Source of the DNA: Ignavibacteriales bacterium
GTDB lineage: Bacteria > Bacteroidota > Ignavibacteria > Ignavibacteriales > Melioribacteraceae
Reading direction: 5' to 3'
Assembly: GCA_016177735.1 (NCBI GenBank)
Contig: JACOUS010000016.1
Span: forward strand, 1-40,666
Length of the DNA stretch: 40,666 bases
The notes beneath the pieces were generated by a model, which was given only the letters and a program-made list of their open reading frames with translations, ran no database searches and was not told the DNA's origin. The position numbers and the translations under genes were made by a program. Below, piece by piece: positions 6,523 to 32,666 of the stretch (position 1 is the stretch's first letter; each line of letters begins with the position of its first letter).

Positions 6523-6948
6523 ATGATTTCCAAAAAACTACTTCTCTTGTTGGCTCTATTATTGCTCTTCTTTACTCTCGGATGCGAGAAAGAAGACAAC
6601 CCAGTCTCTCCGGAAGACCAAGTTATCGGTACGTGGGTGTTAACAAAAATAATATATACAACGCCCAACGGCACCATCGAGTTTACCCCGGAAGCCGCAA
6701 GTATTTCAATCACGCTTGTAATTAACAGCGATCACACTTTTTCTGCTAATGTTACACAAGATGATAGTACCGAAACTATTGTTGGTACGTGGAATGTAGA
6801 AAACGGCAAAGTTACTATTGAGAGCACCGCCGATGTGGAACCACAGGTAATGGATTACTCAATTGAAGGCGATGTTCTCAGAATGACAATTAATTACACG
6901 GATGATACCGGCACGCAAACCGTCACACTTGTATTTAACAAGAAGTGA
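6523..6948 (+). CDS. Lipocalin-like lipoprotein, paralogue 1
   Basis: This 141-residue lipoprotein has a signal peptide ending in the lipobox FTLGC (Cys21), so it should be membrane anchored. The mature part, with VIGTWVLTKI and later VGTWNVENGKVTI, resembles the small lipocalin-like domain found in many Bacteroidota lipoproteins, where a GTW motif opens a beta barrel. A GGAG site sits 7 bases before the ATG. It is followed after 24 bp by the YbaK-type gene, then by a paralogue at 7573. No ligand can be named. Confidence 0.75.
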   Translation: MISKKLLLLLALLLLFFTLGCEKEDNPVSPEDQVIGTWVLTKIIYTTPNGTIEFTPEAASISITLVINSDHTFSANVTQDDSTETIVGTWNVENGKVTIESTADVEPQVMDYSIEGDVLRMTINYTDDTGTQTVTLVFNKK

Positions 6949-6972
6949 ATATTAAAAATTCGGGAGGTAGTT

Positions 6973-7446
6973 ATGCCGTCAACAAAACTAAAAGAGTTTC
7001 TCGATCAGCACAAAGTAAAATATGTGACGATCAAACACTCGCTTGCATACACTGCTCAGGAAGTCGCGGCATCGGTTCATATTAAAGGAAGAGAACTTGC
7101 CAAAACCGTGCTCGTAAAAATTAACGGGCGGCTTGCGATGTGTATTGTTCCGGCTTCGTTCAAAATAGATTTTGAGAAGCTCAAACAAATTTTGGATAAC
7201 CCGCATGTTCGTCTTGCAAACGAAGTCGAGTTCAAAGATAAATTTCCCGAATGCGAAGTCGGCGCAATGCCTCCTTTCGGCAATCTTTATAACGTTGAAG
7301 TTTTTGCGGATGAAAAACTTGCCGATGACGAAGAGATTGCATTCAACGCCGGCACACATACCGAACTTGTCCAAATGTCGTACAAAGATTTTTTAGATTT
7401 AGTTAAACCCAGAACGATGCAGTTTTCTTTTCCGTCAAAACTGTAA
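6973..7446 (+). CDS. YbaK/EbsC-type aminoacyl-tRNA deacylase
   Basis: This 157-residue protein spans a single YbaK/ProX-like editing domain. These enzymes hydrolyse mischarged aminoacyl-tRNA (for example Cys- or Ala-tRNAPro) in the cytoplasm. Seen here: the start of the fold around HSLAYTAQEVAAS, the conserved lysine in LAKTVLVK, and the GxMPPFG loop (GAMPPFGNLYN) that lines the substrate pocket. Length is normal for the free-standing family. A GGAGG site lies 6 bases before the ATG. The exact tRNA edited cannot be told from sequence. It lies between two lipocalin-like lipoprotein genes, probably without functional connection. Confidence 0.88.
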   Translation: MPSTKLKEFLDQHKVKYVTIKHSLAYTAQEVAASVHIKGRELAKTVLVKINGRLAMCIVPASFKIDFEKLKQILDNPHVRLANEVEFKDKFPECEVGAMPPFGNLYNVEVFADEKLADDEEIAFNAGTHTELVQMSYKDFLDLVKPRTMQFSFPSKL

Positions 7447-7572
7447 ATGTGCATCAGCAAAACCAGTTTTATTTTTGCCGCTGTCTTGAACTGATTGAGA
7501 AATGTTTATACATTTGCCGTGAGCATTATCGGCTCACATATCTTAATATATTCAGTTTGCGGTTTATAAAGA

Positions 7573-8010
7573 ATGAACATAAATGTTAGAAAAATACTTG
7601 CGCTGTTGGCAGTAATCAATTTGCTGGTAATTACTGCTTGCAAAGAAGACGATAACCCGGTATCTCCGGGAAATAATCTTGTGGGAACGTGGGTATTAAC
7701 AAAGATTTATTTAACACAATTTAATAATGCAGAAATAAAACCTGGAGATTACGATATCAGCGCAACATTCGATATGAAAAGCAATGGAACATTTACGGCA
7801 ATAGAAAATTATTCCGGTGAAGCAGATACAACTTCGGGAACATGGAGCGAAGCCGGCGGAAAAATTAAATTAACGGCTACTGTTGACGGAGTGAATCAAA
7901 CGGAAGAACTCAGCTACACTTTGCAAGGTAATCTGCTTTTGGTAGATACGACGATCGAGATGCCGACGTTCGGGGAACAGCCGGTGAGATTAGAGTTTAC
8001 TAAACAATGA
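7573..8010 (+). CDS. Lipocalin-like lipoprotein, paralogue 2
   Basis: This 145-residue lipoprotein has a signal peptide and the lipobox VITAC (Cys23). It is clearly paralogous to the gene at 6523: both carry DNPVSP followed by GTWVLTKI just after the lipid anchor, and both have a second GTW (SGTWSEAGGKIKL here). The shared pattern shows a local duplication with the YbaK-type gene in between. The start has no strong ribosome site. The gene is followed by a strong intrinsic terminator at 8032-8066. Confidence 0.75.
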   Translation: MNINVRKILALLAVINLLVITACKEDDNPVSPGNNLVGTWVLTKIYLTQFNNAEIKPGDYDISATFDMKSNGTFTAIENYSGEADTTSGTWSEAGGKIKLTATVDGVNQTEELSYTLQGNLLLVDTTIEMPTFGEQPVRLEFTKQ

Positions 8011-8417: not shown

Positions 8418-9374
8418 ATGGAGATTGTTATTGGCATTATAATATTAGCTGCTGCTATTCTAATATTAGCCGAGTACCGTATAAAAAAACCGGGACAAAT
8501 AATACTTTACGAATCGAACGGATTGGTAAAGTACCGCAAGTTGCGGTTTTATCCCGTGCATTTCAGTTTGAGTATTCCGAACACAACATACACGCTTTCA
8601 TCTGTTGTTGAACCGGAAGCAAAAGGAAAGATCGGTTTGATTGTTAAACTGACCGCTACAATTACGCCCTCGCTTGAAAATATTTCCAAGCTTGTGAGAA
8701 TCGGCGGCTGGGGGAAAGATACTTTAAGCGAAGCAGCAAAAGAACTTGATGTTATTCTGCAAGGAAAGGTTAAAGAGTTTACTGAAAATTACGATGTCGA
8801 AGGAGTCAAGTCCGAGAAAATTTCAAATTATCTGGTTGAACAGATGAAAGATGTGCAGACACAGCTTGGCTTGGAAATTCTTTCGCTCACCATTCAATCC
8901 GTTGAACCGGCTGATAAAAAAATTGCCGAAGCAATCAGGCAGAAAGAAGCTTCGCGTATTCTTGAAGAGACTGAAAAAAATAATCAGCAAATTCGAATCC
9001 ATACGGCACAATTAAAATTAAAAGCCGATGAAGAAATTCTTCGATACGAACACGAGCTCGAAGTAAAAAAATACCAGTTGAAAGAAATCGAGGAAGAAAA
9101 AGAAGCAGCGCTCGCATTGAAAAAATTGAACGAACAAGTCAAACGCGATAAAATCAAACTTGAGATTGAGAAAGAAGAGATGGGCATGTTCAAAAACAAT
9201 CCCGAACTTTTGCTTTTAACTCCTCAAGTTGCGCGGCTGGCTGAAGCAAGCCAGAATTTAAAGAATGCGAGAACAGTTGTTTCGCTCGGCGATATTGAAA
9301 ACGGTTCGCAGTTGGTTGAGATGCTGAAAAATTTTCTCGGCGGATTGCTGCAGATTTCAAACCCGAAGAAATAA
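8418..9374 (+). CDS. SPFH/band-7 domain membrane protein
   Basis: This 318-residue protein has one N-terminal membrane segment (residues 2-20), then a band-7/SPFH-like domain (about 25-175) with the typical EILSLTIQSVEPADKKIAEAIRQKE end, and a highly charged coiled coil (about 175-265, rich in Glu and Lys). The C-terminal 50 residues are less charged. Stomatin, prohibitin and flotillin relatives form oligomeric rings in membrane microdomains and hold proteases or other partners. The next gene begins 20 bp downstream, so the two are probably co-transcribed; a physical link with the fusion enzyme is only a possibility. Confidence 0.75.
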   Translation: MEIVIGIIILAAAILILAEYRIKKPGQIILYESNGLVKYRKLRFYPVHFSLSIPNTTYTLSSVVEPEAKGKIGLIVKLTATITPSLENISKLVRIGGWGKDTLSEAAKELDVILQGKVKEFTENYDVEGVKSEKISNYLVEQMKDVQTQLGLEILSLTIQSVEPADKKIAEAIRQKEASRILEETEKNNQQIRIHTAQLKLKADEEILRYEHELEVKKYQLKEIEEEKEAALALKKLNEQVKRDKIKLEIEKEEMGMFKNNPELLLLTPQVARLAEASQNLKNARTVVSLGDIENGSQLVEMLKNFLGGLLQISNPKK

Positions 9375-9394: not shown

Positions 9395-12300
9395 TTGAGT
9401 ACAAAGAACAACATAGAAAAATTTTTTGAACTAAAGCCGGTAAAGCCCGGCAAGATTTCCGAAATAAGCGAAGCAACAGCCGCATCATTTGTGCCGCCGG
9501 CGGAAAGAGTAAATTTCCATATTGGCAACCCCGTTCAAGATGAAAGATTAACTTTCTATTATTTGCGCACTGTTTTAAAATTGCAGTCAAAGAACGAAGA
9601 AAATTTTTCATCCGGATCGCTGCTCAAAGAACTCGATTGGCTGCCGGAACACGAAAGAAGAATAAAATTTTTACACACGTTAATTAAAAACAGTGCACCC
9701 TATTCACCGCGCGGCGGTTACTCAATTAAAAACCCGGTTCCGCTCATCAAAAAATTTCATAAATGGATCAACGAGGAACAGGAAGAACCGCTTCTTTACG
9801 ATACCGGAGAAAAATCTGGCAATAGAGAAATTGTAATTTCGAGCGGTGGAGTTAATGAATCTTTGCGGATTCTTTTTCATTCTTTGAATTCATACCTCGC
9901 AAATCTGCCGGCTAAAATTTTTCTGTACGGCTGGGCATTCATTCCGCAAAGTGATTTTAGCTCGCTCAATTTTTCGCAATTACCTGAAAGCGAATCCGAT
10001 GCATTTGAAGAACTGAATAATTATCTGCAGAAGCAAAACAACGAACCGGTTTATCTTCTTCTCGGTAAAATTTTTTCGGAAGATATCAGAAGAAAACTTA
10101 GAAACATTTGTCTCGAACGTCCCCTCTTTTTTATCGAAGTAAACGATGCACCGAATCATCTTTCGCTTGCGAGGGAAGCGAAACTTAAGAACCGCGTTTT
10201 AAGAATTATTACGCCCGGATTTATTTCATCGAAGCTGAAAGATTCTTCGATTGTGTTTGCTGCCGGCATTCATGAACTGTTGAAAATTTTCGAATCGGTG
10301 CACTTCCAGTTAAAAGGAACACCGAGCGCATCGGAAATAGAACTTTTACAATATTTAATTGATAATGCCGATGAGATAGAAAAAATTTCAGATAAACAAT
10401 TTCATGATAGCGATGAAGAACCCGATGTAAACTATCCTTCATTATTTCCGCAGACAGCGGTTTATAAAAGTTTGCAAGCCGCAGAGAATGCCGCAAAAAT
10501 ATATCAACAAAAAATTGAAAAGCTGTTAACGAGCGTTGAAAACTTCAGCGGAAAAATTGCCGGCTCTAATTTTCATGAATTGATTTCAACAGACTATTTT
10601 GCGAACAAAGATGCGAATGAAATACTCGATGAATTTTTCAGTAACATCGATAATCCGAAGTGGAACGATGAAGCAATTAAAAGTTTCGCCGGTGTTTTTG
10701 CGAAAGCACACCCGGAATATTCAATAAAAAATCTTGAAGTGGCAAGCGGCTCATCACGAACCGCACTCGCTTTGCTCGGATTTCATTGCGGGATCTCCGA
10801 AGTCGTTACATGCGATTACAGCTGGACTTACGAACACTGCTTCCCGAAATCTACATTCGTTCCGTTAACTGATGAATTCGAACTTGATGTTGACGGGATA
10901 ATCACTGCGGCGGAAAGCAAAATCAACAATGGCTCGGCAAAGCAAAACGTTGCAGTCGTGATTAATAATCCGCACAATGCAAGCGGAAAAATCTTCCGCG
11001 AAAAAGATTTGAAAAATCTTTTAACAAGAACGCTCAACAAAAACATTCTTGTTATTGATGACCTCGCATATCAGAATGTCTTGCCGGAAGATTCTTTGAA
11101 AGGTCCGAAGACTGTTAAACAGCTTGCGCTCGATTTAATTCGTGAAGGAAAAATCTACAAAGAGCAGCTCGAGAATGTAATTACCGTTCATTCGCTTTCG
11201 AAGACCGATTGCTTTGCCGGTGCGCGGCTTGCTGTTGTAGATATTTCGAACAAGAAGCTCGCGGAAAAATTTCACAAACTGAATTCTGCAATCAAGCCGA
11301 ACATTGCCGCAATTCTTACTGCATATTTATTTTACCGTAACGATGAGGGGTGCATAAATAAATTTTGGCTGCTGAGGAACCGGATTTTCAAAGCAAAGAT
11401 GAAGGCGCTTGAGGAAGCTTCTGCCGAACTGCCCGAAGCGCGCAATCAATTCAAAATATTTATTTCGCGTCCGCAAGGAAGTATGTACCCGCGCATGATG
11501 ATAGAAAATCTTCCGGACGGACTTTCGCTTGATTGGCTGTCATCCGGATTGGCGGCTCAAGGAATCGGACTTGTTCCGCTTTCCGCATTTGCGAGAACAT
11601 CAAAAGGTTTTGAACTCGCAAGAAAATCTTTCCGGCTTACACTCGGCGGAACCGATACTCCCGAAATCCTTTTGAGAAAAACACGGCGTGTGCTGATCGA
11701 TTTGAACCGTCTCGTTGCAGAAGAGAAAGCCAAATACAACAAGCAGACTTTTGCGGTAAAAACAATCGGCAGAAAAAATAATTTTTATTTTGATTCGGCA
11801 GTTTCGTTAAAGAATAGTTTCTTTGATGAGTTGAAAGAATTATGTATAAAAAATGCTCCGGCGTTAATGAAGAATTTTTCGGATGAAGCAGATGAAAAAA
11901 TTCTCTCGCAAAGATTTGTAAATAAGTATCTGCCGGAAAGGCTTGAAACATTCAAACAAATTTTTGAAGACCGGCTCGATCTATCGCTCGATTATCTCTC
12001 GTTGATCAATTCCGAAGGAAGCAAAATTTTACAAACGCAGCTTGAGTTCGAATTATACAAAGACAATCTTGCCGACCGTTCGGAAGCCTTCCGTAAAAGA
12101 ACTTTCGACCGGACTGTTCACCCGACACAACTTTTTGCAATTGATGCTGATATTCTTTTCAATGCCGCATTCGATAAAATTTTGCGGAATGAAAAACCGT
12201 CCGGAAAATTAATTTATAATCTGTGCGAAAATTTAATCGAAGAATATCTCGGCAAAAATGTTGCGATCAATTCCGCGAAAGAAGGCGAAGAACTTGTCTG

Positions 12301-14986
12301 CGATCTCCGCTCGATTATCGGCGCAGAACAATTTTCATCTCTCTATTCGAAAGAACCGAATCAAACACTCCTTTCATTTTGGGGCGATTGGGACGGAAGC
12401 AACAGACCATCCGGACAAGGACACCGGCTCGTTGCCGCGGCGCTGATCGAAAATGTTAATTCGCTTTCCGGTATCATCAAATCAATTCTCTCGATTGATA
12501 AAAGTGTTCATGTCGATCCGTTGTTGATTGATGAAATTAATCAGCTCGGTAGTACGAATAAAAATTTTTGGGACTTGCTGAATCATATTACTTCGCTGAC
12601 AAATCAGCTTGAGAAAAGATACAAAAGCGTTTTACCGTTCAATGTTGAATCGAACCGCTGGCGAAAACTTGGAATGAAACTCGGTGTTGCTCAAGACCCG
12701 ATCATCAAACTTTGGCAGCACAACGACAGTCTCGAACAAAAAATGTTTGAGATGCGCAGTGAACGCAGAAAAAAACTTGAGTACTATTTCAGGTTCAACA
12801 AAGATTTGCGAAAAGCACTCAACAGTTTGATCCCGTTTATTTTAAAACATTCATCGCATCCGAAGTTGATGCTGAAAGCCGGTTTTTACCGTGATGTATT
12901 AAAAAGATTTGCGCTCACGCCGCGCATTCATCAAAGATTGATCACTGCAAAAGATCAATTTTCGATCAACACAACCGTTCACAATATTTTTGAAATCAAT
13001 ACACTTTCGGGAACATACGGCAACCCCGGAATGGTGATGGGCTTGCAAGTCAGCATGTCAACAAATGCTGAAGCTTTAATCTCGCTCGATAAAAAATTTG
13101 TTTCCGAAAGGGAAAAAGTTTTGAGGAACAACGCCGATGTTATTCCGAAAGTTTGGTCGATCCCGCTTTTCGAAGATTTGAAAACCGTTTCAAAAATTGA
13201 AGAGTATCTCGATAAAATTTGGGATTATGCAGTGCACAGCAGAAGTATTGATCAGGAAGCCAAAGACCGTTTTTCGGAAATCATGTGCGAAGTATTTATT
13301 GCCGGCTCGGATTTGAGTCAGCAAGTGGGGCAGACAGCCTCCGCTCTTTTGTACAACACGGCAAAACATAAAACAATTGAGTGGCTCGCTAAAAAAGGTC
13401 TCGTTGATAAAGTGCGAATCAAACTTGGAAGCGGCGAACCGATGCAGAGACAAGGCGGTTACTATGCAGATTTTTCAAGCAAGCCGGCGTTCATCAAAAA
13501 TGAAGTTAACAAAAAACGTTTTGAAGAATATCTGAAAGACTCGACAATTAAAAGCACGGAGTTTGCAGTCTCGCCTCTGCACGGAGTTTTTGCCGGCGGT
13601 GATTTGAGAACTTTGCAAAGTGCAGTTTCCGAAAAACTTAGATATCTCAGCACGGAAAGCCGCGCACAGCTTCTTTACCATTTGAAAAAGACTCAGGATT
13701 TTTATCACTCGGAATTAATTAGAGCCGCCGAGCCGTTCATCGATACACGGCTTGTTTACGAATCCAAAAGCCTGAAAGAATTGGAACGGCTGACGCTTGG
13801 AAAAAATGATGAAGTTTATCTTGCATTCTCAGAATTAACGAAGAAAAATTTTCAGCAGATAATTTACGGAAGCGAAGATGATGTGGTCGGCATTCACATT
13901 ATTTCGTATTTCCTTTCGCGTGCAACTCCGGTTTTGAGGGATAGACCGGTTGAACGTCCTTCAAGAAGCAACGGCGATAATAAAGGTCAGAAAATTCTGG
14001 AGAGGATTGCTTCGACAATTCCTCTTTGCAAACACGGAAGTTTGCTGCGCGCAATCAGTCACAACAAAGCGCAAACTTTTATTCTCGGTGTCAATCAATT
14101 AACAACGGGATTGTTCCGCGCGCTCAATCAATTTTCGCAGATGGAGTTTGTCGGCGGAAACGGATACCAGCTTCTTCACGAAAGAATTCTTCCGCATCTG
14201 CCGGTTTATGAAATTCTGCAGACGACTCGAATCTTTCAAGACAAAGAACTTATTCATCTCAATAAATTTTCTAATTCATTCCCGGCTGGAATTACAGCGT
14301 TTACACTTTTGAGAGAAGACATGGATTCGATGGAAATTTTTATTCCGCTTCTTCAAAAAGAATTACTGCGCCGCCACGGAATAAATGTTTCCGAATTTTT
14401 CAAAGGAGATAATTTTATTTACGAACTACTGCCAACACTGCGCCCCGACCTTGCAGTGTTGATTCAGCCTGATCTTTTCAATACCGATCGGCAGAATGTT
14501 GTAAAGGAAATTAAGTATGAAATTCCGGCTGACTGGCTTGAAGAATTTTCCGCTCTGCTCGATGTGCCGGGAAAAATAAATTATTGGCGGAACCTTACAT
14601 GGAAACTTCTCGAAGAGCCGATCAAAAATCAGGTTAAATCGTTTGTTGAACTTGCGATTGCACTCAACACTCTTTCGAAAGATATCGACACGAGAGAATT
14701 TACATCTGCTGCGGCTTCCGTCAAGAAAACAAAATTCGAAACATCACTTGCGGATCTTTTAAAAGGGAAAGTAGATGATTCGATGCGCGAGTTTTTAACA
14801 GCGGCTGTGCAGTATTTAACCCGCTTGCCGGCTGAAATGGTTGAAGTGCCGATTGATATCGTCCGCGCGCTCAAAGATGTAGAACGAATTCTCCGCATCG
14901 AAGAACAAGCGTTGAGCAAAAAGAAACAAGAATTGCTCAACTTCTACTTACTGCAAATTGCCCGGCATGTTGGTGATAACGGATAA
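9395..14986 (+). CDS. Giant PLP aminotransferase / phosphoenolpyruvate carboxylase-like fusion protein
   Basis: The protein has 1863 residues and starts at TTG (AAGGA 6 bases upstream). Residues about 400-760 form a fold-type I aminotransferase: NNPHNASGK (524-532), IDDLAY (554-559), SLSKTDCFAGAR with the PLP lysine K603 and R611, and R747 in FRLTLGG for the substrate carboxylate. Residues about 30-330 look like a second, degenerate copy (HIGNP at 42-46) with no obvious PLP lysine. Residues about 780-1860 resemble PEP carboxylase: TVHPTQ (H909, compare TAHPTE), WGDWDG (996-1001, compare GGDRDGNP), IPLFED (E1260), GSDLSQQVGQ (D1306), KLGSGEPMQRQGG (R1352, compare the GRGGxVGRGG loop) and LLRAI (R1552). 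The alignment is by eye. One chain could make oxaloacetate and transaminate it to aspartate; several PEPC residues are changed, so activity is uncertain. Confidence 0.72.
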   Translation: MSTKNNIEKFFELKPVKPGKISEISEATAASFVPPAERVNFHIGNPVQDERLTFYYLRTVLKLQSKNEENFSSGSLLKELDWLPEHERRIKFLHTLIKNSAPYSPRGGYSIKNPVPLIKKFHKWINEEQEEPLLYDTGEKSGNREIVISSGGVNESLRILFHSLNSYLANLPAKIFLYGWAFIPQSDFSSLNFSQLPESESDAFEELNNYLQKQNNEPVYLLLGKIFSEDIRRKLRNICLERPLFFIEVNDAPNHLSLAREAKLKNRVLRIITPGFISSKLKDSSIVFAAGIHELLKIFESVHFQLKGTPSASEIELLQYLIDNADEIEKISDKQFHDSDEEPDVNYPSLFPQTAVYKSLQAAENAAKIYQQKIEKLLTSVENFSGKIAGSNFHELISTDYFANKDANEILDEFFSNIDNPKWNDEAIKSFAGVFAKAHPEYSIKNLEVASGSSRTALALLGFHCGISEVVTCDYSWTYEHCFPKSTFVPLTDEFELDVDGIITAAESKINNGSAKQNVAVVINNPHNASGKIFREKDLKNLLTRTLNKNILVIDDLAYQNVLPEDSLKGPKTVKQLALDLIREGKIYKEQLENVITVHSLSKTDCFAGARLAVVDISNKKLAEKFHKLNSAIKPNIAAILTAYLFYRNDEGCINKFWLLRNRIFKAKMKALEEASAELPEARNQFKIFISRPQGSMYPRMMIENLPDGLSLDWLSSGLAAQGIGLVPLSAFARTSKGFELARKSFRLTLGGTDTPEILLRKTRRVLIDLNRLVAEEKAKYNKQTFAVKTIGRKNNFYFDSAVSLKNSFFDELKELCIKNAPALMKNFSDEADEKILSQRFVNKYLPERLETFKQIFEDRLDLSLDYLSLINSEGSKILQTQLEFELYKDNLADRSEAFRKRTFDRTVHPTQLFAIDADILFNAAFDKILRNEKPSGKLIYNLCENLIEEYLGKNVAINSAKEGEELVCDLRSIIGAEQFSSLYSKEPNQTLLSFWGDWDGSNRPSGQGHRLVAAALIENVNSLSGIIKSILSIDKSVHVDPLLIDEINQLGSTNKNFWDLLNHITSLTNQLEKRYKSVLPFNVESNRWRKLGMKLGVAQDPIIKLWQHNDSLEQKMFEMRSERRKKLEYYFRFNKDLRKALNSLIPFILKHSSHPKLMLKAGFYRDVLKRFALTPRIHQRLITAKDQFSINTTVHNIFEINTLSGTYGNPGMVMGLQVSMSTNAEALISLDKKFVSEREKVLRNNADVIPKVWSIPLFEDLKTVSKIEEYLDKIWDYAVHSRSIDQEAKDRFSEIMCEVFIAGSDLSQQVGQTASALLYNTAKHKTIEWLAKKGLVDKVRIKLGSGEPMQRQGGYYADFSSKPAFIKNEVNKKRFEEYLKDSTIKSTEFAVSPLHGVFAGGDLRTLQSAVSEKLRYLSTESRAQLLYHLKKTQDFYHSELIRAAEPFIDTRLVYESKSLKELERLTLGKNDEVYLAFSELTKKNFQQIIYGSEDDVVGIHIISYFLSRATPVLRDRPVERPSRSNGDNKGQKILERIASTIPLCKHGSLLRAISHNKAQTFILGVNQLTTGLFRALNQFSQMEFVGGNGYQLLHERILPHLPVYEILQTTRIFQDKELIHLNKFSNSFPAGITAFTLLREDMDSMEIFIPLLQKELLRRHGINVSEFFKGDNFIYELLPTLRPDLAVLIQPDLFNTDRQNVVKEIKYEIPADWLEEFSALLDVPGKINYWRNLTWKLLEEPIKNQVKSFVELAIALNTLSKDIDTREFTSAAASVKKTKFETSLADLLKGKVDDSMREFLTAAVQYLTRLPAEMVEVPIDIVRALKDVERILRIEEQALSKKKQELLNFYLLQIARHVGDNG

Positions 14987-18297: not shown

Positions 18298-19548
18298 ATG
18301 GACCGTGTAATCGAAAAGAAGATGTGGACGAAAAAAAGAATTGTGCTGCTTTCATCCGCCGCTCTTTTCGTTTTGTTTGCTCTCTACACATTTGTCTTGA
18401 GCGATACGAGCAGCAAGCTGAATGTTGAAACGGAAAGACTTACAATCTCGGAAGTTAAACGCGCCCCGTTTCAGGAATATATTCCGGTCACCGGAACTGT
18501 TGAACCGATACAAACTTTTTTTCTTGATTTATCCGACGGCGGAAAAGTAGTCGGAAAATATTTGGAAGAAGGCGCGATGCTGAATATCGGAACGCCGATA
18601 ATAAAATTGGACAACCCGAATCTCTCGCTTCAAGTGTTGAGCACACAATCGAATTTTGTACAAGCACAAAGTATTTCGCGGCAGACAAGATTGGGTTATG
18701 AGCAGAATATAATTACCAGACGAAATCAAATGCTCGACCTGAATTTGAATCTTCTTATCCAGGAAAGAACTTACAAAAACAACAAAGTGCTTTATGAAAA
18801 AGGAATGATATCGAAAAATGAATTTGACGAAAGCAGAGAGAAGTATGAAACGATGCTCAAAAGTTTGGAGCTTGTGAAAGAATCGTTGAAGAAAGATTCG
18901 CTCACGTATATTCAGCTTGTTCGGCAAGGCGAATCCGATGTTGAAATGTCTAAAAATTATTTGACGCTCGTTCAAAATCAGCTTGCGAATTTAACGGTGA
19001 GTGCACCGATTAAAGGACAGTTGACATCGCTCAATTGTGAGATCGGGCAGTCGGTCGGCGCCGGTTACAGACTGGGGCAAATTGATAACATCGATTCCTT
19101 CAAAGTCCGAACGGAAATAGATGAGCATTACATTTCAAGAATTACGGAAGGACAAACAGGCGAGTACGAATTCGACAGCAAAATTTATACGTTGAAAATA
19201 AAAACAGTTTATCCGCAAGTTACCAACGGAAGATTTTATGTCGATATGATTTTTACCGGCAAGCAGCCGAAAGGAATCCGCAGAGGACAAACAATGCACA
19301 TAAAACTTCAGCTCGGCGGACTTTCCGATGCACTGCTTATCGAAAGCGGCGGATTCTTTTCTACAACCGGCGGTCAGTGGATTTTTGTTGTGGATAAATC
19401 CGGCACGTTTGCTGTGAGAAAACAAATAAAAATCGGCAGACAAAACCCGCAGTACTATGAAGTGCTCGAAGGTTTGAAAGCCGGCGAGAAAGTAATTACA
19501 TCATCGTACGATAATTATAACGAATACGACAAATTAGTATTGCAGTGA
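18298..19548 (+). CDS. HlyD/MacA-type periplasmic adaptor subunit
   Basis: This 416-residue membrane fusion protein links an inner-membrane ABC transporter to an outer-membrane channel. There is one N-terminal membrane helix (about residues 15-35), the first lipoyl-like half (GKVVGKYLEEGAMLNIGTPI), a coiled-coil hairpin (about 105-215), the second lipoyl half (APIKGQLTSLNCEIGQSVGAG), then beta-barrel and membrane-proximal domains ending in EVLEGLKAGEKVITSSYDNY. It heads a cluster with two permease and two ATPase genes. No TolC-type gene sits in this cluster; the channel would have to come from elsewhere. Confidence 0.88.
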   Translation: MDRVIEKKMWTKKRIVLLSSAALFVLFALYTFVLSDTSSKLNVETERLTISEVKRAPFQEYIPVTGTVEPIQTFFLDLSDGGKVVGKYLEEGAMLNIGTPIIKLDNPNLSLQVLSTQSNFVQAQSISRQTRLGYEQNIITRRNQMLDLNLNLLIQERTYKNNKVLYEKGMISKNEFDESREKYETMLKSLELVKESLKKDSLTYIQLVRQGESDVEMSKNYLTLVQNQLANLTVSAPIKGQLTSLNCEIGQSVGAGYRLGQIDNIDSFKVRTEIDEHYISRITEGQTGEYEFDSKIYTLKIKTVYPQVTNGRFYVDMIFTGKQPKGIRRGQTMHIKLQLGGLSDALLIESGGFFSTTGGQWIFVVDKSGTFAVRKQIKIGRQNPQYYEVLEGLKAGEKVITSSYDNYNEYDKLVLQ

Positions 19549-19575
19549 TTCCGGATGCTTGATAACGGAGGAAAA

Positions 19576-19800
19576 ATGTTTGGCAGCTATCTAAAAATAA
19601 TTTTGCGAAATTTAATCAGGCACCGGATTTTTTCTTTTATCAATGTTATAGGCTTAGCAGTTGGAATAACATGTTTTGTTGTGCTTACTCTTTTTGTAAT
19701 TGCCGGATTAATTGCACTGCTGATTGCCCTTGCAACGGTGAGTTATCAATCAATCAAAGCGGCGCTTGCAAATCCTGTGGAGGCTCTTCGATACGAATAG
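19576..19800 (+). pseudogene. Internally deleted FtsX/MacB-type permease remnant
   Basis: The frame encodes about 75 residues from the ATG at 19576 (GGAGG just upstream). It joins a typical permease N-terminus (MFGSYLKIILRNLIRH...INVIGLAVGITCF) directly to the last 30 or so residues of such a permease (GLIALLIALATVSYQSIKAALANPVEALRYE). The second part is almost the same as the end of the full permease at 23266-25563, at DNA level too. Around 700 residues are missing and the reading frame stays open. It is most likely a deletion relic of a third permease, though a two-helix micropeptide cannot be excluded. A start at 19555 is also possible. Confidence 0.82.
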
Positions 19801-19814
19801 TACGTAGTGCGAAG

Positions 19815-19837
19815 ATCCCGATGCTTTTTATCGGGAT
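19815..19837. repeat. ATCCCGAT/ATCGGGAT hairpin, copy 1
   Basis: Eight-base perfect arms (19815-19822 and 19830-19837) enclose a 7-base T-rich loop. The same arms with a similar loop occur at 25578-25600, and the core CCCGAT/ATCGGG recurs at 38097-38117. It directly follows the permease remnant. Confidence 0.65.
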
Positions 19838-19893
19838 TGATAGTTTGAAATATGAATAACAACTCTATACGCCAAGCGTTTAAGGAGGTAAAC

Positions 19894-22257
19894 ATGTTTA
19901 AAAATTATTTTAAAACGGCATTCAGGAATGTTGTTAAATATAAGGGGCATACTCTTATAAACATTGCCGGTCTTGCAGTCGGTATCTGTGCCGTGATGCT
20001 TATCTATCTTTACATTTCTTTTGAGTTGAGTTACGATTCGTTTCACAAAGGTTCGGAAAAAATATTTAGGGTTTCCGTAATAAATGAAATAAAAGATAAA
20101 GGTACTTCCGAAGGTGCTGTATTTCTAGATGCGCTGGCTCCCGTGATAAAAAACGAAATTCCGGAAGTAGAACAAACCGTACGTGTGTCGGATGAGAAAC
20201 CGGGTTTGCTATCGAACGGTCAAAAACAAATCCAGATTAATTCCGCGAGATATGCCGATTCAACTTTTCTAGATATTTTTTCTTTTGAGTTACTAATGGG
20301 TAATCACAAACAAATTCTGAATAAACCTTTTACCGCGCTGCTAACTGAAGAAACGTCCGATAAATTGTTCGGCAATAAAAATCCAATAGGACAAATTGTT
20401 GACTTCAACGATTTGCAGTTTGAAGTAACGGGAATAATTAAGAATCCTCCGTTAAATTCTCACCTCAAATTTAATATGCTTTTATCGTTCGGCTCGCTTT
20501 ATCAGATGAAGAATGTTTTTATGGGCTGGAATGGAGGCAACCAGTATATAACTTACGTTAAATTAGTTAATAAAAATCGGAGTGAAACGGTTGACAAAAA
20601 ACTTGTTCCGTTAATGTGGAAGTACCTGAATAAAAAGTTGAAACCGTTTGGATGGAAATTTACAGCATACCTTCAACCGTTAAAAGAGATCCATCTAAAG
20701 TACGACGACCAAAACCAAACACGGCTTATAAATATTTTTGTCTTTTCAATCGTGGCTATATTTATTCTGTTGATAGCTTGCATAAATTATATCAACCTGA
20801 CAATTGCCGGTTCGTTGAAACGCAGCAAAGAGGTTGGCGTTAAAAAAGTTTTTGGAGCTTCAAGGATTGAGCTGATAAAACAATTCATCGCCGAATCGTT
20901 TTTGATAATAATCATTTCGTCCGTTATTTCGATAGCCGGTTTATATTTGATAATACCTTCCTACAAAAAATTCATCGGCGATTTTTTCAATACGGATATT
21001 TTGATAAGCATAAACAGCATTGCTGTTTTTGCCGGCGGTGCAGTATTAATCAGCTTAATTGCAAGTTTGTACCCGGCATTTTATTTATCGCGGATGACCC
21101 CGCTTGCCGCTATTAACGAAAATAGATTACAGCGCTCATCAAAATTCAACATTCGGAATGCATTGATTCTTCTTCAGTTTGTAATTTCAATCGGGATGAT
21201 CTCTTCAACGCTGATAATTTCCTCGCAATTGTCCTTTGTTAAGCATCGGGATTTGGGTTTTCGGAAAGAAAATATTTTTGTTCTTGGATTGAACAGCATC
21301 GAAAGCCGTGCAAAATATCTTACAATTAAAAATGAAATCTCAAAAATTACGGGCGTCCAAAAAGTTACGGCAACTTCTGCAATTCCCATAAACGGTTTTA
21401 CGAGCAACGGGTATTTGGTAGAAGGACAAAATGCACCCAACATAATTAATGTTGTGGATGCCGATAAAGATTTTCTCGATACATATAAAATTAAATTGAT
21501 CAGCGGGAGAAATTTTTCAGAGGATTTCGGTACCGATAAAGATTCATATCTCGTAAACGAAGAATTTGTAAAACAATATGGATTGAAAAACCCTCTCGGC
21601 AAAACAATTAACCGGAACTCACCGCACAAAATTATTGGTGTTGTAACTGATTTTAGCTTTGCTTCGGCGTATGAAAAAATTTCTCCGCTTATTATCACAA
21701 GCCAGCCGGAATCCGGCAGTTTTAATTATTTGTCCGTGGTGATTAATTCTATAAACATAGTAGAAGTTATTAGTGCGATTTCGAAAACGTTTGAAAATAT
21801 TTGTCCCGATACCCCATTTGATTACAAGTTTTTGGACGAAGCATTGGCACAAGTTTACCATGACGAAGCGAACTTCAGAACTTTGTTTGTCTATTTCTCT
21901 TCTTTATCGATTTTAATATCAATCACCGGACTACTCGGACTAACAATCTTTTCGTTGACGCAAAAAAGAAAAGAGATAGGCATCAGAAAAGTTTTGGGTG
22001 CTTCGGTAATAAATATTATTAAACTCGCATACAAAGAGTATTTACTCATTATACTTACTGCATTTGTAATAGCCTCGCTTCTTTCAAAATATTTTATGGA
22101 CGTGTGGCTTGAGAAATTTGCGTTCAGGATTGAACCGTCATTAGGATTGTTTTTATTATCCGGATTGATTGCAATAGTAATTTCGTTTATCACTGTTACT
22201 GTTTATACTGTGAAAGCGGCGATGGCTAATCCATCGGATAGTTTGAGATATGAATGA
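19894..22257 (+). CDS. MacB/FtsX-type ABC transporter permease 1
   Basis: This 787-residue permease starts at the ATG at 19894, with AAGGAGG at 19882-19888; the frame extends 14 codons upstream without a ribosome site. Layout: a first membrane helix with HTLINIAGLAVGICAVMLIY, a periplasmic MacB_PCD domain (about 45-270), three helices with the FtsX motif SKEVGVKKVFGASR, a second helix and periplasmic domain, then the last FtsX unit with RKEIGIRKVLGAS and the end AMANPSDSLRYE. This is the duplicated 8-helix form common in Bacteroidota. Such systems export peptides or lipoproteins or act in mechanotransmission; the substrate is unknown. The ATPase gene follows. Confidence 0.88.
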   Translation: MFKNYFKTAFRNVVKYKGHTLINIAGLAVGICAVMLIYLYISFELSYDSFHKGSEKIFRVSVINEIKDKGTSEGAVFLDALAPVIKNEIPEVEQTVRVSDEKPGLLSNGQKQIQINSARYADSTFLDIFSFELLMGNHKQILNKPFTALLTEETSDKLFGNKNPIGQIVDFNDLQFEVTGIIKNPPLNSHLKFNMLLSFGSLYQMKNVFMGWNGGNQYITYVKLVNKNRSETVDKKLVPLMWKYLNKKLKPFGWKFTAYLQPLKEIHLKYDDQNQTRLINIFVFSIVAIFILLIACINYINLTIAGSLKRSKEVGVKKVFGASRIELIKQFIAESFLIIIISSVISIAGLYLIIPSYKKFIGDFFNTDILISINSIAVFAGGAVLISLIASLYPAFYLSRMTPLAAINENRLQRSSKFNIRNALILLQFVISIGMISSTLIISSQLSFVKHRDLGFRKENIFVLGLNSIESRAKYLTIKNEISKITGVQKVTATSAIPINGFTSNGYLVEGQNAPNIINVVDADKDFLDTYKIKLISGRNFSEDFGTDKDSYLVNEEFVKQYGLKNPLGKTINRNSPHKIIGVVTDFSFASAYEKISPLIITSQPESGSFNYLSVVINSINIVEVISAISKTFENICPDTPFDYKFLDEALAQVYHDEANFRTLFVYFSSLSILISITGLLGLTIFSLTQKRKEIGIRKVLGASVINIIKLAYKEYLLIILTAFVIASLLSKYFMDVWLEKFAFRIEPSLGLFLLSGLIAIVISFITVTVYTVKAAMANPSDSLRYE

Positions 22258-22355
22258 TTTTGGATGCAAGATACCGGATGCTTGCCAGAGATAGAAATAT
22301 AAGATGGAATATGTGAACAACAATTTGTCAATTAAACAATTACACGGAAAATATA

Positions 22356-23018
22356 ATGATTAAGCTAACTAACCTTTCCAAGTACTACGAAAACAAATTT
22401 GTAAAAACTTTTGTGCTGAGGAATATCAATCTTGAAATTGAAGAAGGCGGGTTTGTTTCGATAATGGGTCCGTCCGGCGCGGGCAAATCTACTTTGCTTC
22501 ATATCCTCGGCATGCTCGATTCTCCTTCGGAGGGCGAATATCATTTTTATGATGAAACAGTTCACAAAATGAAAGAGAAAAAACTTTCCGAGCTTCACAA
22601 GTCCTATCTCGGATTTGTATTCCAGCAGTACCATTTAATTGACGAACTGACGGTTTATGAAAATCTTGAAACGCCTCTTCTCTACAAAAAAATAAAAAGC
22701 GATGAACGTAAAGGAATGCTTGCAGATATTCTCGACCGTTTCAACATCGTTGCAAAGAAAGATTTATTCCCGAATCAGTTATCCGGCGGACAGCAGCAAA
22801 TTGTTGCAATCGCACGTGCAATAATTACAAAACCGAAATTAATTCTTGCGGACGAACCGACCGGCAATCTTCACACCGATCACGGAAAAGAAATTATGGA
22901 AATGCTCAAAAAGCTGAACAATGATGGAACAACAATTATTCAGGTCACTCACTCGGATCTGAATGCAAAGTACGGAAACAGAATCATCAAATTAAAAGAT
23001 GGATGGATTGAGAAATAA
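22356..23018 (+). CDS. MacB/LolD-type ABC ATPase 1
   Basis: This 220-residue ATPase has Walker [10 protein letters not shown] (38-46), Q-loop [17 protein letters not shown], signature LSGGQQQ, Walker [12 protein letters not shown] and switch VTHSD. The FVFQ...L.ELTVYENL pattern is that of the LolD/FtsE/MacB branch that partners FtsX-type permeases. The D-loop region reads NLHTDHG where NLDS is usual, so the aspartate normally after NL is a histidine here; this is worth checking but need not abolish activity. It is paired with the permease at 19894. Confidence 0.9.
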
Positions 23019-23063
23019 AGAATGGAAGAAGGAAAATGGAAAATGGATGATCAAAAAGTCATT

Positions 23064-23134
23064 TCGGGTTTACCCGACCAAGTCGGGTTTACCCGACCAA
23101 GTTGGGCTTACCCGACCAAGTCGGGTTTACCGGG
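23064..23134. repeat. 19-bp tandem repeat with palindromic core
   Basis: Three complete 19-bp units (23064-23082, 23083-23101, 23102-23120) and a partial fourth (23121-23134) follow head to tail. Each has the form TCGGGTTTACCCGACCAAG; the third has two changes. Each unit contains the self-complementary core CGGGTTTACCCG. The unit length is not a multiple of three, and the stretch lies between an ATPase gene and the next permease gene, so it is not coding. Confidence 0.85.
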
Positions 23135-23265
23135 AAATGAAAGACATGAGAGGCAAGATGCTTTCTGGATTCTCGATACCGGATGCTGGATTTTGAAACA
23201 CGAAACTAAAAACTCCAAACTCAAAACATGGAGTTTGTAATACGTAACAATTAACGGAGAAAAAA

Positions 23266-25563
23266 ATGTTCCGGTATTTAATCAAACAGTATGTAAGAAA
23301 TATTTCAAGGCGAAAACTCTTTTCGTTTATTAATGTAACCGGGCTTGCTTTCGGAATTGCGTTTATAATTTTAATCGGGCAGTTCGTTTATTACGAATTC
23401 AATTACAACACAGGGTTGAAAAATATCGATAATATCTACCGGCTTGTTGATGTTGGCGCAAATAATTACGACGCCGATTACAGAATCAAAGATCAAATTC
23501 TTGCAAGTGTGCCCGGCGTTAAAAACGTTTCTATTTTGAATAAATATGGAACGGATGCAAATGCCGGCGGCAAAGTTTTTCAAATCAAAGATATGCTTGT
23601 TGTTGACCGGAATTTCTTCGACATATTTAATTGCACATTTATTCACGGCAATGCCAAGTATGCATTGAATACACTTGATGATGTTGTGTTGACCGAAACG
23701 ACGGCGAAAAATATTTTCGGCACCGCAGATGCTGTCGGAAAAACTCTCCGGCTCAATCATAAATACGATATGCTTGTAACCGGTGTCGTTAAAGACTTGC
23801 CGGAGAATCTCAGCTTTAATGCCGAGATTTTTGTGAATGCAGTGAACTCGCCGAAACAACGGCTCTTTTATAAAATGTCGTGCCTTTCATTCGACCAGTG
23901 CAAATATCCTTTCGATGTTTTTGTGGAAGTAGAGAAGAACGCAGACGTAAAAAAAATTGAGGCGCAGATAGCTTCGCTCAATAATATTAACAGTTATCTC
24001 TTCCCGAAAAAAATTAAGCTTACTCCACTGAAGACAAATTATTTTAATACTGGGTTCGATGATAGTAATTTGATGCACGGTAATGTTGAGTTGATAAAAA
24101 TTCTCTCCGTAATTGGTGTGATAATTCTTTTGCTTGCAGTTGTAAACTTTGTGAATCTCGCAACTGCCGCTTACCGATACCGGTTAACCGAAATGGGCGT
24201 AAAAAAATGTTTGGGCGCGAACCGTTCTACTTTAATAAAACAATTGTTGATCGAAGCACTTTTTACATGCACAATTTCATCATTGCTCGGAATTATTCTT
24301 GCGGTTCTTTTTCTTCCTTACTTCAATCGGTTTGTTGATAAGCCGCTCGCTCTGCAAATTTTTAATGACCCGGTCTTTTTCATTTTGTTTGCCGGATTCA
24401 TTTTGTTTCTCGGCATCGCAGCCGGATTTTTACCGGCAGTTGTCTTGTCGAAAATTTCTCCTATCCAGCTTTTTAAGTTGAATCCCTACTTAAAAGGAAC
24501 CGGCAAAAAATACAGAGGAGTTCTCACCGTGTTTCAATTTGCCGTTACAATAATTTTAATAAGCGGATTGATTGTAATTACAAAACAGATCGATTTTGTA
24601 AAACACAAAGATTTGGGATTTAATACAGAAAAATTGTTGTACCTGAAAATCCATTTTACACTTAAAGACCGTCTTCAGGTTATTGAAAATAAATTACGGC
24701 AGTACCACGGCATTAAATCTCTTACAAAAACATTGGGAAGACCCGGTGAAATTCGAATGTTTATGCAGAATTATGAAACAATACTAATTGATTCAACTTC
24801 GTTAAAAGTTTTTGGCATCGAGATTATTAAGGGAAGAAATTTATTGGCTGGCGATGTGGACAAAGCATGTCTTGTTAATCAAACGGCGCTCAAAAATTTT
24901 AAGGGCGGTGATTTTATAAATCAGAAAGTGAATGGAAAAGAAATTGTTGGTGTTGTTTCGGATTTTCATTACTCATCGCTTTACAATGAAATTGGGCAAT
25001 TGGCTTTGATGTACAATCCGAATTGGAGTGTTTGTGATATTACAATGAGAGTCTCCGGACCAATCGGCAATGCGATCAGTTACATCAAAAAAACATGGGA
25101 AGAAATTTGTCCCGATTACCCGCTTGAGTTTGGTTTTTACGATGAAAATTTTGCAACGATGTATAAAAAAGAAGAAAACCTTGCTGCACTTGTAAGCATA
25201 TTTTCAATTCTTGCTGTTGTTATTTCTTGCATGGGAATTTTCGGCTTGTCGATTTTTCAATCGGAACAAAGAATAAAAGAAATCGGTGTGAGAAAAGTAT
25301 TGGGCGCCGATGCCCGCGAAATAATTTTACTACTCACAAAAAGTTTTTCCAAGTGGGTGATCATTGCAAATGTAATTGCAATTCCGGTCGCCTATTATTT
25401 TTTAAATCAGTGGCTCGAAGATTTTGCGTACAGAATAGAAATAAGCTGGTGGATTTTTGTACTGTCCGGGTTGATTGCACTGTTGATTGCACTTGCAACA
25501 GTAAGCTTTCAGGCAATCAAAGCGGCGATGTCAAATCCTGTGGAGGCTCTTCGATATGAGTAA
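23266..25563 (+). CDS. MacB/FtsX-type ABC transporter permease 2
   Basis: The protein is 765 residues, with GGAG 7 bases before the ATG. It has the same duplicated architecture as permease 1: first helix with LFSFINVTGLAFGIAFIIL, a periplasmic MacB_PCD domain, FtsX helices with TEMGVKKCLGANR, a second periplasmic half, and a last FtsX unit with IKEIGVRKVLGADA and AMSNPVEALRYE. Its C-terminal coding sequence is the close relative of the tail of the remnant at 19576-19800. It is paired with the ATPase at 25869. Two permease/ATPase pairs behind one adaptor suggest either a heteromeric exporter or two exporters sharing the adaptor. Confidence 0.88.
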   Translation: MFRYLIKQYVRNISRRKLFSFINVTGLAFGIAFIILIGQFVYYEFNYNTGLKNIDNIYRLVDVGANNYDADYRIKDQILASVPGVKNVSILNKYGTDANAGGKVFQIKDMLVVDRNFFDIFNCTFIHGNAKYALNTLDDVVLTETTAKNIFGTADAVGKTLRLNHKYDMLVTGVVKDLPENLSFNAEIFVNAVNSPKQRLFYKMSCLSFDQCKYPFDVFVEVEKNADVKKIEAQIASLNNINSYLFPKKIKLTPLKTNYFNTGFDDSNLMHGNVELIKILSVIGVIILLLAVVNFVNLATAAYRYRLTEMGVKKCLGANRSTLIKQLLIEALFTCTISSLLGIILAVLFLPYFNRFVDKPLALQIFNDPVFFILFAGFILFLGIAAGFLPAVVLSKISPIQLFKLNPYLKGTGKKYRGVLTVFQFAVTIILISGLIVITKQIDFVKHKDLGFNTEKLLYLKIHFTLKDRLQVIENKLRQYHGIKSLTKTLGRPGEIRMFMQNYETILIDSTSLKVFGIEIIKGRNLLAGDVDKACLVNQTALKNFKGGDFINQKVNGKEIVGVVSDFHYSSLYNEIGQLALMYNPNWSVCDITMRVSGPIGNAISYIKKTWEEICPDYPLEFGFYDENFATMYKKEENLAALVSIFSILAVVISCMGIFGLSIFQSEQRIKEIGVRKVLGADAREIILLLTKSFSKWVIIANVIAIPVAYYFLNQWLEDFAYRIEISWWIFVLSGLIALLIALATVSFQAIKAAMSNPVEALRYE

Positions 25564-25868
25564 TATCGAAGACCGACATCCCGATGCCCTTTATCGGGAT
25601 GGAAGCACCGAGATACGAATGATTCTGGATACTGAATGCAAGATACTGGATGCCGGCAAAGGAACTCGAAACGATCGGCAAGTACGAAAGATGATTTTTG
25701 ATTTACGAATTACGATTTACAAAAACCGTCTTTTATCGAGCATCTTCGAGGTGTTTTATGGACGAGTATCCAGCATATACGCAGCGGCTTTCATGCAGTA
25801 CGCGCAAGGTTAAGAATGACGCACTTTGACGCGATGAAAAATTAAACAAAATAAATTAGGGAGCAGAA
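25564..25868. other. Spacer with repeats between permease 2 and ATPase 2
   Basis: The 305 bp contain the second ATCCCGAT/ATCGGGAT hairpin at 25578-25600, then degenerate copies of GATACTGGATGC (25619-25655), and low-complexity ATTACGATTTAC-like words near 25690-25720. The short frame through this stretch is made of repeat DNA and is not called. Confidence 0.55.
25578..25600. repeat. ATCCCGAT/ATCGGGAT hairpin, copy 2
   Basis: The perfect 8-base arms at 25578-25585 and 25593-25600 are identical to those of the copy at 19815-19837. Like that copy, it lies within 20 bases of the end of a permease coding sequence. Confidence 0.65.
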
Positions 25869-26558
25869 ATGATTCGCACAGTTAATCTCAAAAAAATCTT
25901 TAAGACGGAAGAAGTTGAAACAACGGCACTCGATAACGTGAGCATCGAAATTAACGAAGGAGAATTTGTTTCGATAATGGGTCCTTCGGGATGCGGCAAA
26001 TCTACATTGATGAACATACTCGGACTTCTCGATAATCCTTCCGGCGGCGAATATACTTTTCTTGGAACGGAAGTATCGAAATATTCCGAGCGCCAGCGTG
26101 CACTAATGCGCAAGCAGAATATCGGCTTTGTGTTTCAGAGTTTTAACTTGATCGATGAATTAACCATTTATGAAAATGTTGAACTGCCGCTTCTGTATTT
26201 AAAAACTTCCGTTTCGGAAAGAAAGAAAAAAGTGGAAAGCGTTTTGGAAAGAATGCAGATCATGCACCGGCGCAATCATTTTCCGCAGCAGTTATCCGGC
26301 GGACAGCAGCAGAGAGCCGCAGTTGCACGCGCACTTGTCGGCAGCCCCAAAATTATTTTAGCGGATGAACCGACCGGCAACCTCGATTCAACGCACGGCG
26401 ATGAAGTAATGAAAATGTTAACCGAACTTAACGAAAGCGGAACAACAATTGTGATGGTAACGCACTCGCCCACATATGCAGAGTACGGTCACCGCGTAAT
26501 TCATTTGTTCGACGGCAAAGTTGTAACGGAAAATTTCAAATCGGCTTTTCATGTGTAA
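25869..26558 (+). CDS. MacB/LolD-type ABC ATPase 2
   Basis: This 229-residue ATPase has Walker A GPSGCGKST (38-46), FVFQSFNLIDELTIYENVELPLLY, signature LSGGQQQRAAVARAL, Walker [14 protein letters not shown] and VTHSP. All motifs are canonical, unlike ATPase 1 where the D-loop differs. A GGGAG site lies 5 bases before the ATG. It is the last gene of the export cluster and should power permease 2. Confidence 0.92.
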   Translation: MIRTVNLKKIFKTEEVETTALDNVSIEINEGEFVSIMGPSGCGKSTLMNILGLLDNPSGGEYTFLGTEVSKYSERQRALMRKQNIGFVFQSFNLIDELTIYENVELPLLYLKTSVSERKKKVESVLERMQIMHRRNHFPQQLSGGQQQRAAVARALVGSPKIILADEPTGNLDSTHGDEVMKMLTELNESGTTIVMVTHSPTYAEYGHRVIHLFDGKVVTENFKSAFHV

Positions 26559-31143: not shown

Positions 31144-31158
31144 ATTTTCCTCAAATTT

Positions 31159-32655: not shown

Positions 32656-32666
32656 TTTAATCACCT

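Follow-up and report, generated by a model that had tools for sequence, protein, structure and literature searches.

Phosphoenolpyruvate (PEP) carboxylase (PEPC) and aspartate aminotransferase both act at the PEP-pyruvate-oxaloacetate node. A review divides PEPC into a bacterial/plant and an archaeal type, comprising four groups, and in its excerpted text mentions no fusion to an aminotransferase (PMC8100219). The bacterial/plant type (PF00311) is represented by E. coli Ppc; the archaeal type (PF14010; PDB 3odm) is a free-standing protein of about 490-570 aa. Extracts from the aminotransferase literature describe fusions of another kind: the Mycoplasma penetrans methionyl-tRNA synthetase carries an appended aminotransferase (PMC7694997), and the excerpted text of a review mentions only fusions other than the one described here (PMC9309667). 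Among bacterial SPFH membrane proteins, loss of the HflK-HflC complex lowers the abundance of the metabolic enzyme IspG, and the excerpted report contains no pairing with one large metabolic enzyme (PMC12005517).

The locus described here lies in a 40,666-nucleotide stretch of Ignavibacteriales DNA, analysed as a whole and referred to as the window. It joins an aminotransferase to a PEPC-like C-terminal domain within one protein and places an SPFH gene directly ahead of it. The C-terminal domain has PLFE, SD, and GxGxxxxR in common with both PEPC types. With the bacterial/plant enzymes it also shares TxHPT(E/Q) and, by eye only, GDxDG, RP, and LRAI in matching order, but E. coli K546, H579, and R581 are replaced, the family cut-off is not reached, and there is no match along the full length. 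With the archaeal type it shares VF.A before SD and a His-Pro motif, but the domain is about 1080 aa long, falls below the family cut-off, and is joined to an aminotransferase. Residues 438-755 are like class I/II (subgroup I) aminotransferases in all PLP residues and in domain order, but are without the usual N-terminal arm and are accompanied by a 400-residue N-terminal part and the C-domain. The M. penetrans protein is likewise a natural fusion of an aminotransferase with an enzyme using or feeding it; the present fusion differs in partner, reaction order, and organism. As with HflK-HflC, a bacterial SPFH protein is tied to a putative metabolic enzyme, but it is a different SPFH protein. 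Among the matches listed in a search of the open-access literature, no description of an aminotransferase-PEPC-like fusion was found.

The fusion gene and its aminotransferase half

The fusion gene contains no stop across its 1863 codons and is separated by 20 bp from the gene that precedes it (Table 1); the alignment of homologues reaches as far as the same start position. The preliminary description had proposed a single chain carrying K603, R611, R747, H909, W996-G1001, E1260, D1306, R1352, and R1552, and translation of the frame placed every one of these residues as given. All were invariant in an alignment of 25 full-length homologues (the window, 23 from the whole-genome search, and G300, a side hit of PF00311), except for G997, which was nearly so (at least 90%). 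The same residues held in 64 N-parts and 74 C-parts. The scan that gathered the C-parts started from the patterns DRTVHPTQ and F[IV]AGSDLSQ, so the conservation of H909 and D1306 among them is partly by construction; in the 25 full-length homologues it is free of this bias.

Table 1. Features of the fusion locus, with positions in the window and the evidence for each
Feature	Position	Strand	Evidence
SPFH/Band_7 protein, 318 aa, hydrophobic N-terminus	8418..9374	+	PF01145 27.1 bits vs cut-off 23.6
Fusion gene, 1863 aa, TTG start	9395..14986	+	kept as one frame in relatives
N-terminal domain, residues 1-345	9395..10429	+	hhalign 23.0 vs aminotransferases, 2/100 shuffles as high
Fold-type I aminotransferase domain, residues 438-755	10706..11659	+	PF00155 E 1e-13; hhalign Prob 98.8, E 8.2e-17
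K603, PLP lysine	11201..11203	+	aligned to SLSK lysine; invariant in 64
PEPC-like domain, residues 784-1863	11744..14983	+	core and His-motif profile matches
H909, counterpart of E. coli PEPC H138 (TVHPTQ / TAHPTE)	12119..12121	+	0/60 shuffles as high
R1177, by-eye counterpart of E. coli R396 (TPRIHQ / DIRQ)	12923..12925	+	motif by eye; invariant in 74
PEPC core segment, residues 1253-1356 (PLFED, GSDLSQ, GSGEPMQRQGG)	13151..13462	+	hhalign 43.3, E 2.6e-5
R1552, by-eye counterpart of E. coli R713 (LRAI)	14048..14050	+	motif by eye; region without statistical support

PF00155 was the sole Pfam match over cut-off (residues 468-750, 51.7 bits against a cut-off of 19.7), and a match of this type was present in 25 of 25 full-length members. 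When residues 380-793 were aligned by hhalign with 29 aminotransferases of relatives, N528, D556, Y559, K603, R611, and R747 fell on PLP residues, each invariant in 64 sequences; W477 is presumably the counterpart of the aspartate aminotransferase tryptophan. With a match far above chance, residues 438-755 are identified by sequence as a PLP fold-type I aminotransferase, and this part of the preliminary description is borne out by both profile matches and by the invariant PLP residues. The match begins at residue 438, corresponding to about position 68 of an ordinary aminotransferase, and the usual N-terminal arm was not seen there. No NCBIfam aminotransferase model was over its cut-off among the matches listed (25 of 44); the best were hisC, valine-pyruvate, and aspartate transaminases, with the aspartate aminotransferase models reaching 32.5 bits against a cut-off of 550.

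An additional part of about 400 residues lies ahead of the aminotransferase domain. Within it, residues 1-345 hold the arm-like motifs FHIGNP and PYxPRGG (Y103 invariant) and weakly match aminotransferases at 140-167 and 290-323, in the expected order. In a comparison of residues 1-345 with residues 380-793, 4 of 100 shuffles did as well (hhalign), and separation by HMMER was poor, with AUC values of 0.70 (decoys) and 0.59 (reversed sequences). Residues 1-345 are possibly a degenerate aminotransferase copy that has no PLP lysine; we speculate that such a dead copy may complete the active one.

The SPFH partner and the metabolic neighbourhood

The gene preceding the fusion, first of the pair, encodes an SPFH protein whose hydrophobic N-terminal stretch was judged by eye. 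Its pairing with the fusion is new in this analysis and goes beyond the preliminary description, as do the spread outside Ignavibacteria and the N-terminal 400 or so residues. An SPFH gene adjoined the fusion upstream, on the same strand, in 88 of 92 loci; these remained from 111 (31 with G handles and 80 named, two sets that overlap and are not independent) once 19 with less than 1 kb upstream were left out. Two of the exceptions (L070, L114) have the SPFH gene farther upstream, ahead of the first part of a split fusion gene, and for the other two (L140 and L147, Bryobacteraceae) no SPFH gene was seen upstream. Across 294 genomes of the class, the SPFH protein was found in 40 (E 1e-5) and the fusion in 40, with both in 39 (Fisher p 2e-46, relatedness ignored). 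One genome (G200) had the SPFH protein only, its match stopping 46 bases short of a contig end, which would leave any next gene off the contig; another (G261) had the fusion only, in pieces on a short contig stretch. The fusion and the SPFH protein are genetically coupled. A defence system was considered as a candidate and set aside; PADLOC gave nothing for either protein.

Neighbouring genes offer some metabolic context. In L075, L077, and L106 (labelled acidobacterium) the fusion is followed after 92-167 bp by an aminotransferase gene and then by a PEP carboxykinase gene, and in L138 such a pair starts 2 kb from the fusion; Pfam identification of the pair covers the aminotransferase of L106 and the carboxykinase of L077 only. 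The best NCBIfam model for the L106 aminotransferase is aspartate aminotransferase, below cut-off. In a Bryobacterales genome a canonical PEPC gene (L105:8932-11739, minus strand; PF00311 E 2.1e-216) lies convergent to the fusion, about 130 bp after it, so that 5 of the 80 named loci have neighbours of these kinds. The window's genome holds an aminotransferase-PEP carboxykinase-aminotransferase cluster on another contig than the fusion (G000:C17:1669-6478), and such a cluster occurs near the fusion in L075, L077, and L138. Because the aminotransferase-PEP carboxykinase pair is also found away from the fusion, including in the window's genome, the adjacency is a hint only.

Downstream of the fusion in the window are genes for a histidine kinase and a sigma-54 regulator. 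The window further contains a gene for a free-standing aminoacyl-tRNA editing domain between two lipocalin-like genes (6523-8010, plus strand), MacB-type ABC exporter genes with an HlyD-like protein (18298-26558, plus strand), and an AcrB-type efflux set with HlyD and OEP genes (28048-33890, minus strand).

Canonical PEPC over cut-off was present in 66 of the 294 class genomes and in 9 of the 40 carriers of the fusion, where 9.0 were expected; the two are thus independently distributed, and replacement of canonical PEPC by the fusion was not seen. Neither PF00311 nor PF14010 gave a match over cut-off in the window's genome, where the best sub-threshold match is the fusion itself; that genome also contains other genes resembling aspartate aminotransferase. 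The sole full archaeal-type PEPC among the 294 genomes is a 508-aa frame (L165, genome G196). PEPCs of about 850 aa, with the PF00311 match in two pieces and low scores, were found in L039 (G207), L040 (G199), and G071; in L039 and L040 the usual C-terminal NTG is NSA.

The PEPC-like domain and its possible reaction

A core segment corresponding to E. coli 496-590 was chosen from the region where canonical and archaeal-type PEPC match mutually. The profile of this common segment matched 74 C-domains at Prob 74.7, with an E-value (Table 1) that is somewhat optimistic because the alignment of the fusion to that region had already been seen before the segment was chosen; none of 100 column shuffles scored as high (maximum 25.2), and the reversed profile gave 20.0. 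Used as an HMM on 74 fusions, 74 reversed fusions, and 1646 decoys, the core ranked fusions in 49 of the top 50 places, the remaining one being a real PEPC among the decoys (AUC 0.9985 over the 789 decoys giving any match; best E 1.1e-5). Full alignments of canonical and archaeal-type PEPC gave hhalign scores of 34.3 (shuffle maximum 31.9) and 31.5 (shuffle maximum 31.3), each with 0 of 100 shuffles as high, and small PEPC alignments matched weakly, in the right register. The full canonical HMM separated fusions with an AUC of 0.92 from decoys and 0.88 from reversed sequences (best fusion E 0.0042), and the full archaeal-type HMM hardly did so (AUC 0.63).

Ahead of the core, similarity to canonical PEPC peaked at TVHPTQ/TAHPTE, with a score that 0 of 60 shuffles reached; against the archaeal type this region gave no match (17 of 60). 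After the core no signal was seen: 24 and 22 of 60 shuffles scored as high against the two PEPC types. Of the PEPC-like domain as first described, the active-site segment and H909 stood up to profile comparison, and outside them the C-domain is without statistical support. The preliminary description took the lack of any profile or structural match of the C-part to PEPC as grounds against it; a profile match does exist, limited to the active-site segment. In profile comparison the two known PEPC types also resemble each other in the core alone, so silence outside it is no argument against kinship.

The core segment holds counterparts of E. coli E506, D543, and R587, around E1260, D1306, and R1352. 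Ten core columns are conserved in both known PEPC types, and the majority of fusions keep nine of them. Where the types differ, the fusion follows the archaeal type in having F and A ahead of SD (VFIAGSD, against VFFARSD and VMIGYSD), and the replacement of K546, H579, and R581 is likewise as in archaeal-type PEPC. We take the named E. coli residues to have the functional roles usually assigned to them.

We tentatively favour, at a little short of an even chance, a bifunctional enzyme in which a third, archaeal-leaning type of PEPC and an aminotransferase would make aspartate from PEP on an SPFH membrane scaffold. The C-terminal half, a putative deeply diverged PEPC nearer the archaeal type in its core, would form oxaloacetate from PEP and bicarbonate; the aminotransferase half would transfer an amino group, probably from glutamate, onto that oxaloacetate to yield aspartate, and carbon would be channelled from PEP to aspartate. 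The SPFH protein encoded upstream would probably contact the enzyme physically and hold it at the membrane in an oligomeric scaffold. This reading is supported by the core match, the nine conserved columns, the H909 motif, the rank of PEPcase_2 (see below), and the invariant PLP residues, as well as by the occurrence of the fusion across phyla, the SPFH coupling in 39 of 40 carriers, the four PEP carboxykinase loci, and the absence from the window's genome of any PEPC, canonical or archaeal-type, that passes cut-off. It is weakened by the three replaced E. coli residues, by the silence of the C-domain beyond the core and His motif, by the independent distribution of canonical PEPC, by the other genes resembling aspartate aminotransferase in the genome, and by the results of the wider searches given below together with the poor separation by the archaeal-type HMM.

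The very strong divergence of the C-domain, in which the core segment and His motif alone are detectable, would also suit a PEPC fold and metal site that carry out another reaction, the product of which the aminotransferase would convert into another amino acid. An aminotransferase domain below every NCBIfam cut-off among the matches listed, with three different transaminases as best models, is compatible with such an enzyme. We regard this as unlikely, though by no means negligible, since the residues kept are those common to both true PEPC types and the PEP carboxykinase and aminotransferase neighbours in four loci point to the PEP-oxaloacetate-aspartate node. Less probable still is that one half is catalytically dead and has a sensing role: the PEPC-like domain could, for example, regulate the aminotransferase upon binding PEP or aspartate, the SPFH protein serving as membrane anchor. 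The loss of K546, H579, and R581 would fit such a role, and malic enzyme offers a precedent in its fused inactive phosphotransacetylase domain, which is regulatory (PMC8100219, in extract), but neither set of catalytic positions varies, across 64 N-parts and 74 C-parts drawn from several phyla, and conservation of the C-part equals or exceeds that of the N-part (mean column identity 66% vs 61%).

In the wider searches, the two PEPC families proposed earlier as a check on the C-terminal part stayed below their cut-offs: PF00311 gave the fusion 13.0 bits against 22.4 in the window's genome, and PF14010 gave the single sequence 12.3 bits against 25 (E 0.062). No Pfam cut-off was reached in residues 784-1863, a PDB search with the C-domain profile returned no match at E 1, and a contig profile scan of genomes with the single fusion sequence as query returned nothing. 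PF14010 matched the fusion frame in 3 of 20 carrier genomes (14.6-19.4 bits), on profile positions 166-252; frames of 912-945 aa in the same 20 genomes, presumably canonical PEPC, scored 13.8-21 bits, and canonical PEPCs elsewhere up to 31.8 bits. The reverse search of PEPCs with the fusion HMM fell short of significance (best E 1.5, five reversed sequences ranking higher), and Pfam matches of single members were noise-like (ANG-1 in 11 of 44, PEPcase_2 in 3 of 44). The failed reverse search, this noise, and the lack of a profile match over the full length speak for chance resemblance or convergence on short motifs in an unrelated, all-new domain, but the shuffle, reversal, and decoy controls make that very improbable. 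With the family consensus, moreover, PEPcase_2 came first among 24736 Pfam models (E 0.02), while the noise families, among the other three models listed, fell to E 0.96 or worse. Sub-threshold PF00311 matches to fusion frames in nine genomes (G300 and eight of the 31 sub-threshold matches in the whole-genome searches) all lay on profile positions 468-621, and the two true PEPC types likewise match each other in this core only.

Spread of the fusion and its significance

A search with residues 781-1863 found the fusion in 40 of the 294 class genomes. It was one open frame of 1848-1933 aa in 30 of these, and in pieces or cut in the other ten (G015, G058, G105, G131, G211, G251, G255, G261, G267, G281). 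When named genomes were scanned with the family alignment, 149 relatives were found and the best 80 kept; 64 of these 80 loci had the two halves at full length in a single frame (1846-1961 aa, counted stop to stop, so that the real proteins may be shorter). Twelve loci were fused and cut by a contig end, and L112 was fused and truncated near a contig start. The three loci without the aminotransferase part in the same frame were L077, which lies at a contig end, L114, which has its other half in the preceding frame, and L138, which is broken near a contig start. In L143, a second frame of 62 aa (14468-14653, plus strand), similar to the final residues of the fusion, follows the full gene at a distance of about 1.4 kb. 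No stand-alone C-domain was demonstrated, the pieces in G211, G261, and G255 being too short to tell.

By submitter label, the 74 C-domains placed in a tree were from Ignavibacteriota (26), Chloroflexota (22), Bacteroidota (8), Acidobacteriota (8), Calditrichota (6), and Caldisericota (1), with three, the window included, without a group. In this tree, built by a quick method, Acidobacteriota formed one clade and Chloroflexota needed two changes. Among 251 Chloroflexota genomes, three carried the fusion family, in frames of 1864-1913 aa. One carrier (G149) has the fusion in one frame on a single contig of 3300414 bases, exactly the length published for the closed chromosome of Melioribacter roseus (PMC3534657, in extract), and a canonical PEPC elsewhere in the genome. 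The excerpted genome paper contains the words pyruvate carboxylase and PEP carboxykinase, and 'PEP carboxyl(ase)' is absent from it (PMC3534657).

These observations support the view that an aminotransferase and a PEPC-like domain were joined naturally and long ago, and that the fusion is widespread in relatives, as the preliminary description had suggested, and extends across phyla; in most relatives the two halves lie in one frame and not in separate genes. Although the named carriers are mostly metagenome-assembled genomes, a local assembly join of two separate genes is refuted by the full-length single frame in most named loci and class genomes and by the single contig of M. roseus chromosome length.

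A bolder form of the favoured reading, which we consider possible but doubtful, is that a third class of PEPC exists solely inside an aminotransferase enzyme of about 1870 residues, its active copy perhaps completed by a dead one, which together with a dedicated SPFH protein at the membrane would form a channelled PEP-to-aspartate machine shared by several phyla. If the bifunctional reading is true, the single-chain link would be a way for bacteria to commit carbon to aspartate without release of oxaloacetate, and would add a lineage to the PEPCs. Because family models recognise the fusion as an aminotransferase only, any such oxaloacetate-making capacity of the carrier genomes may be overlooked. 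Through its strict tie to the fusion, the SPFH protein would allow the function of a bacterial SPFH scaffold to be tested directly in organisms available in culture (M. roseus, Stygiobacter electus).
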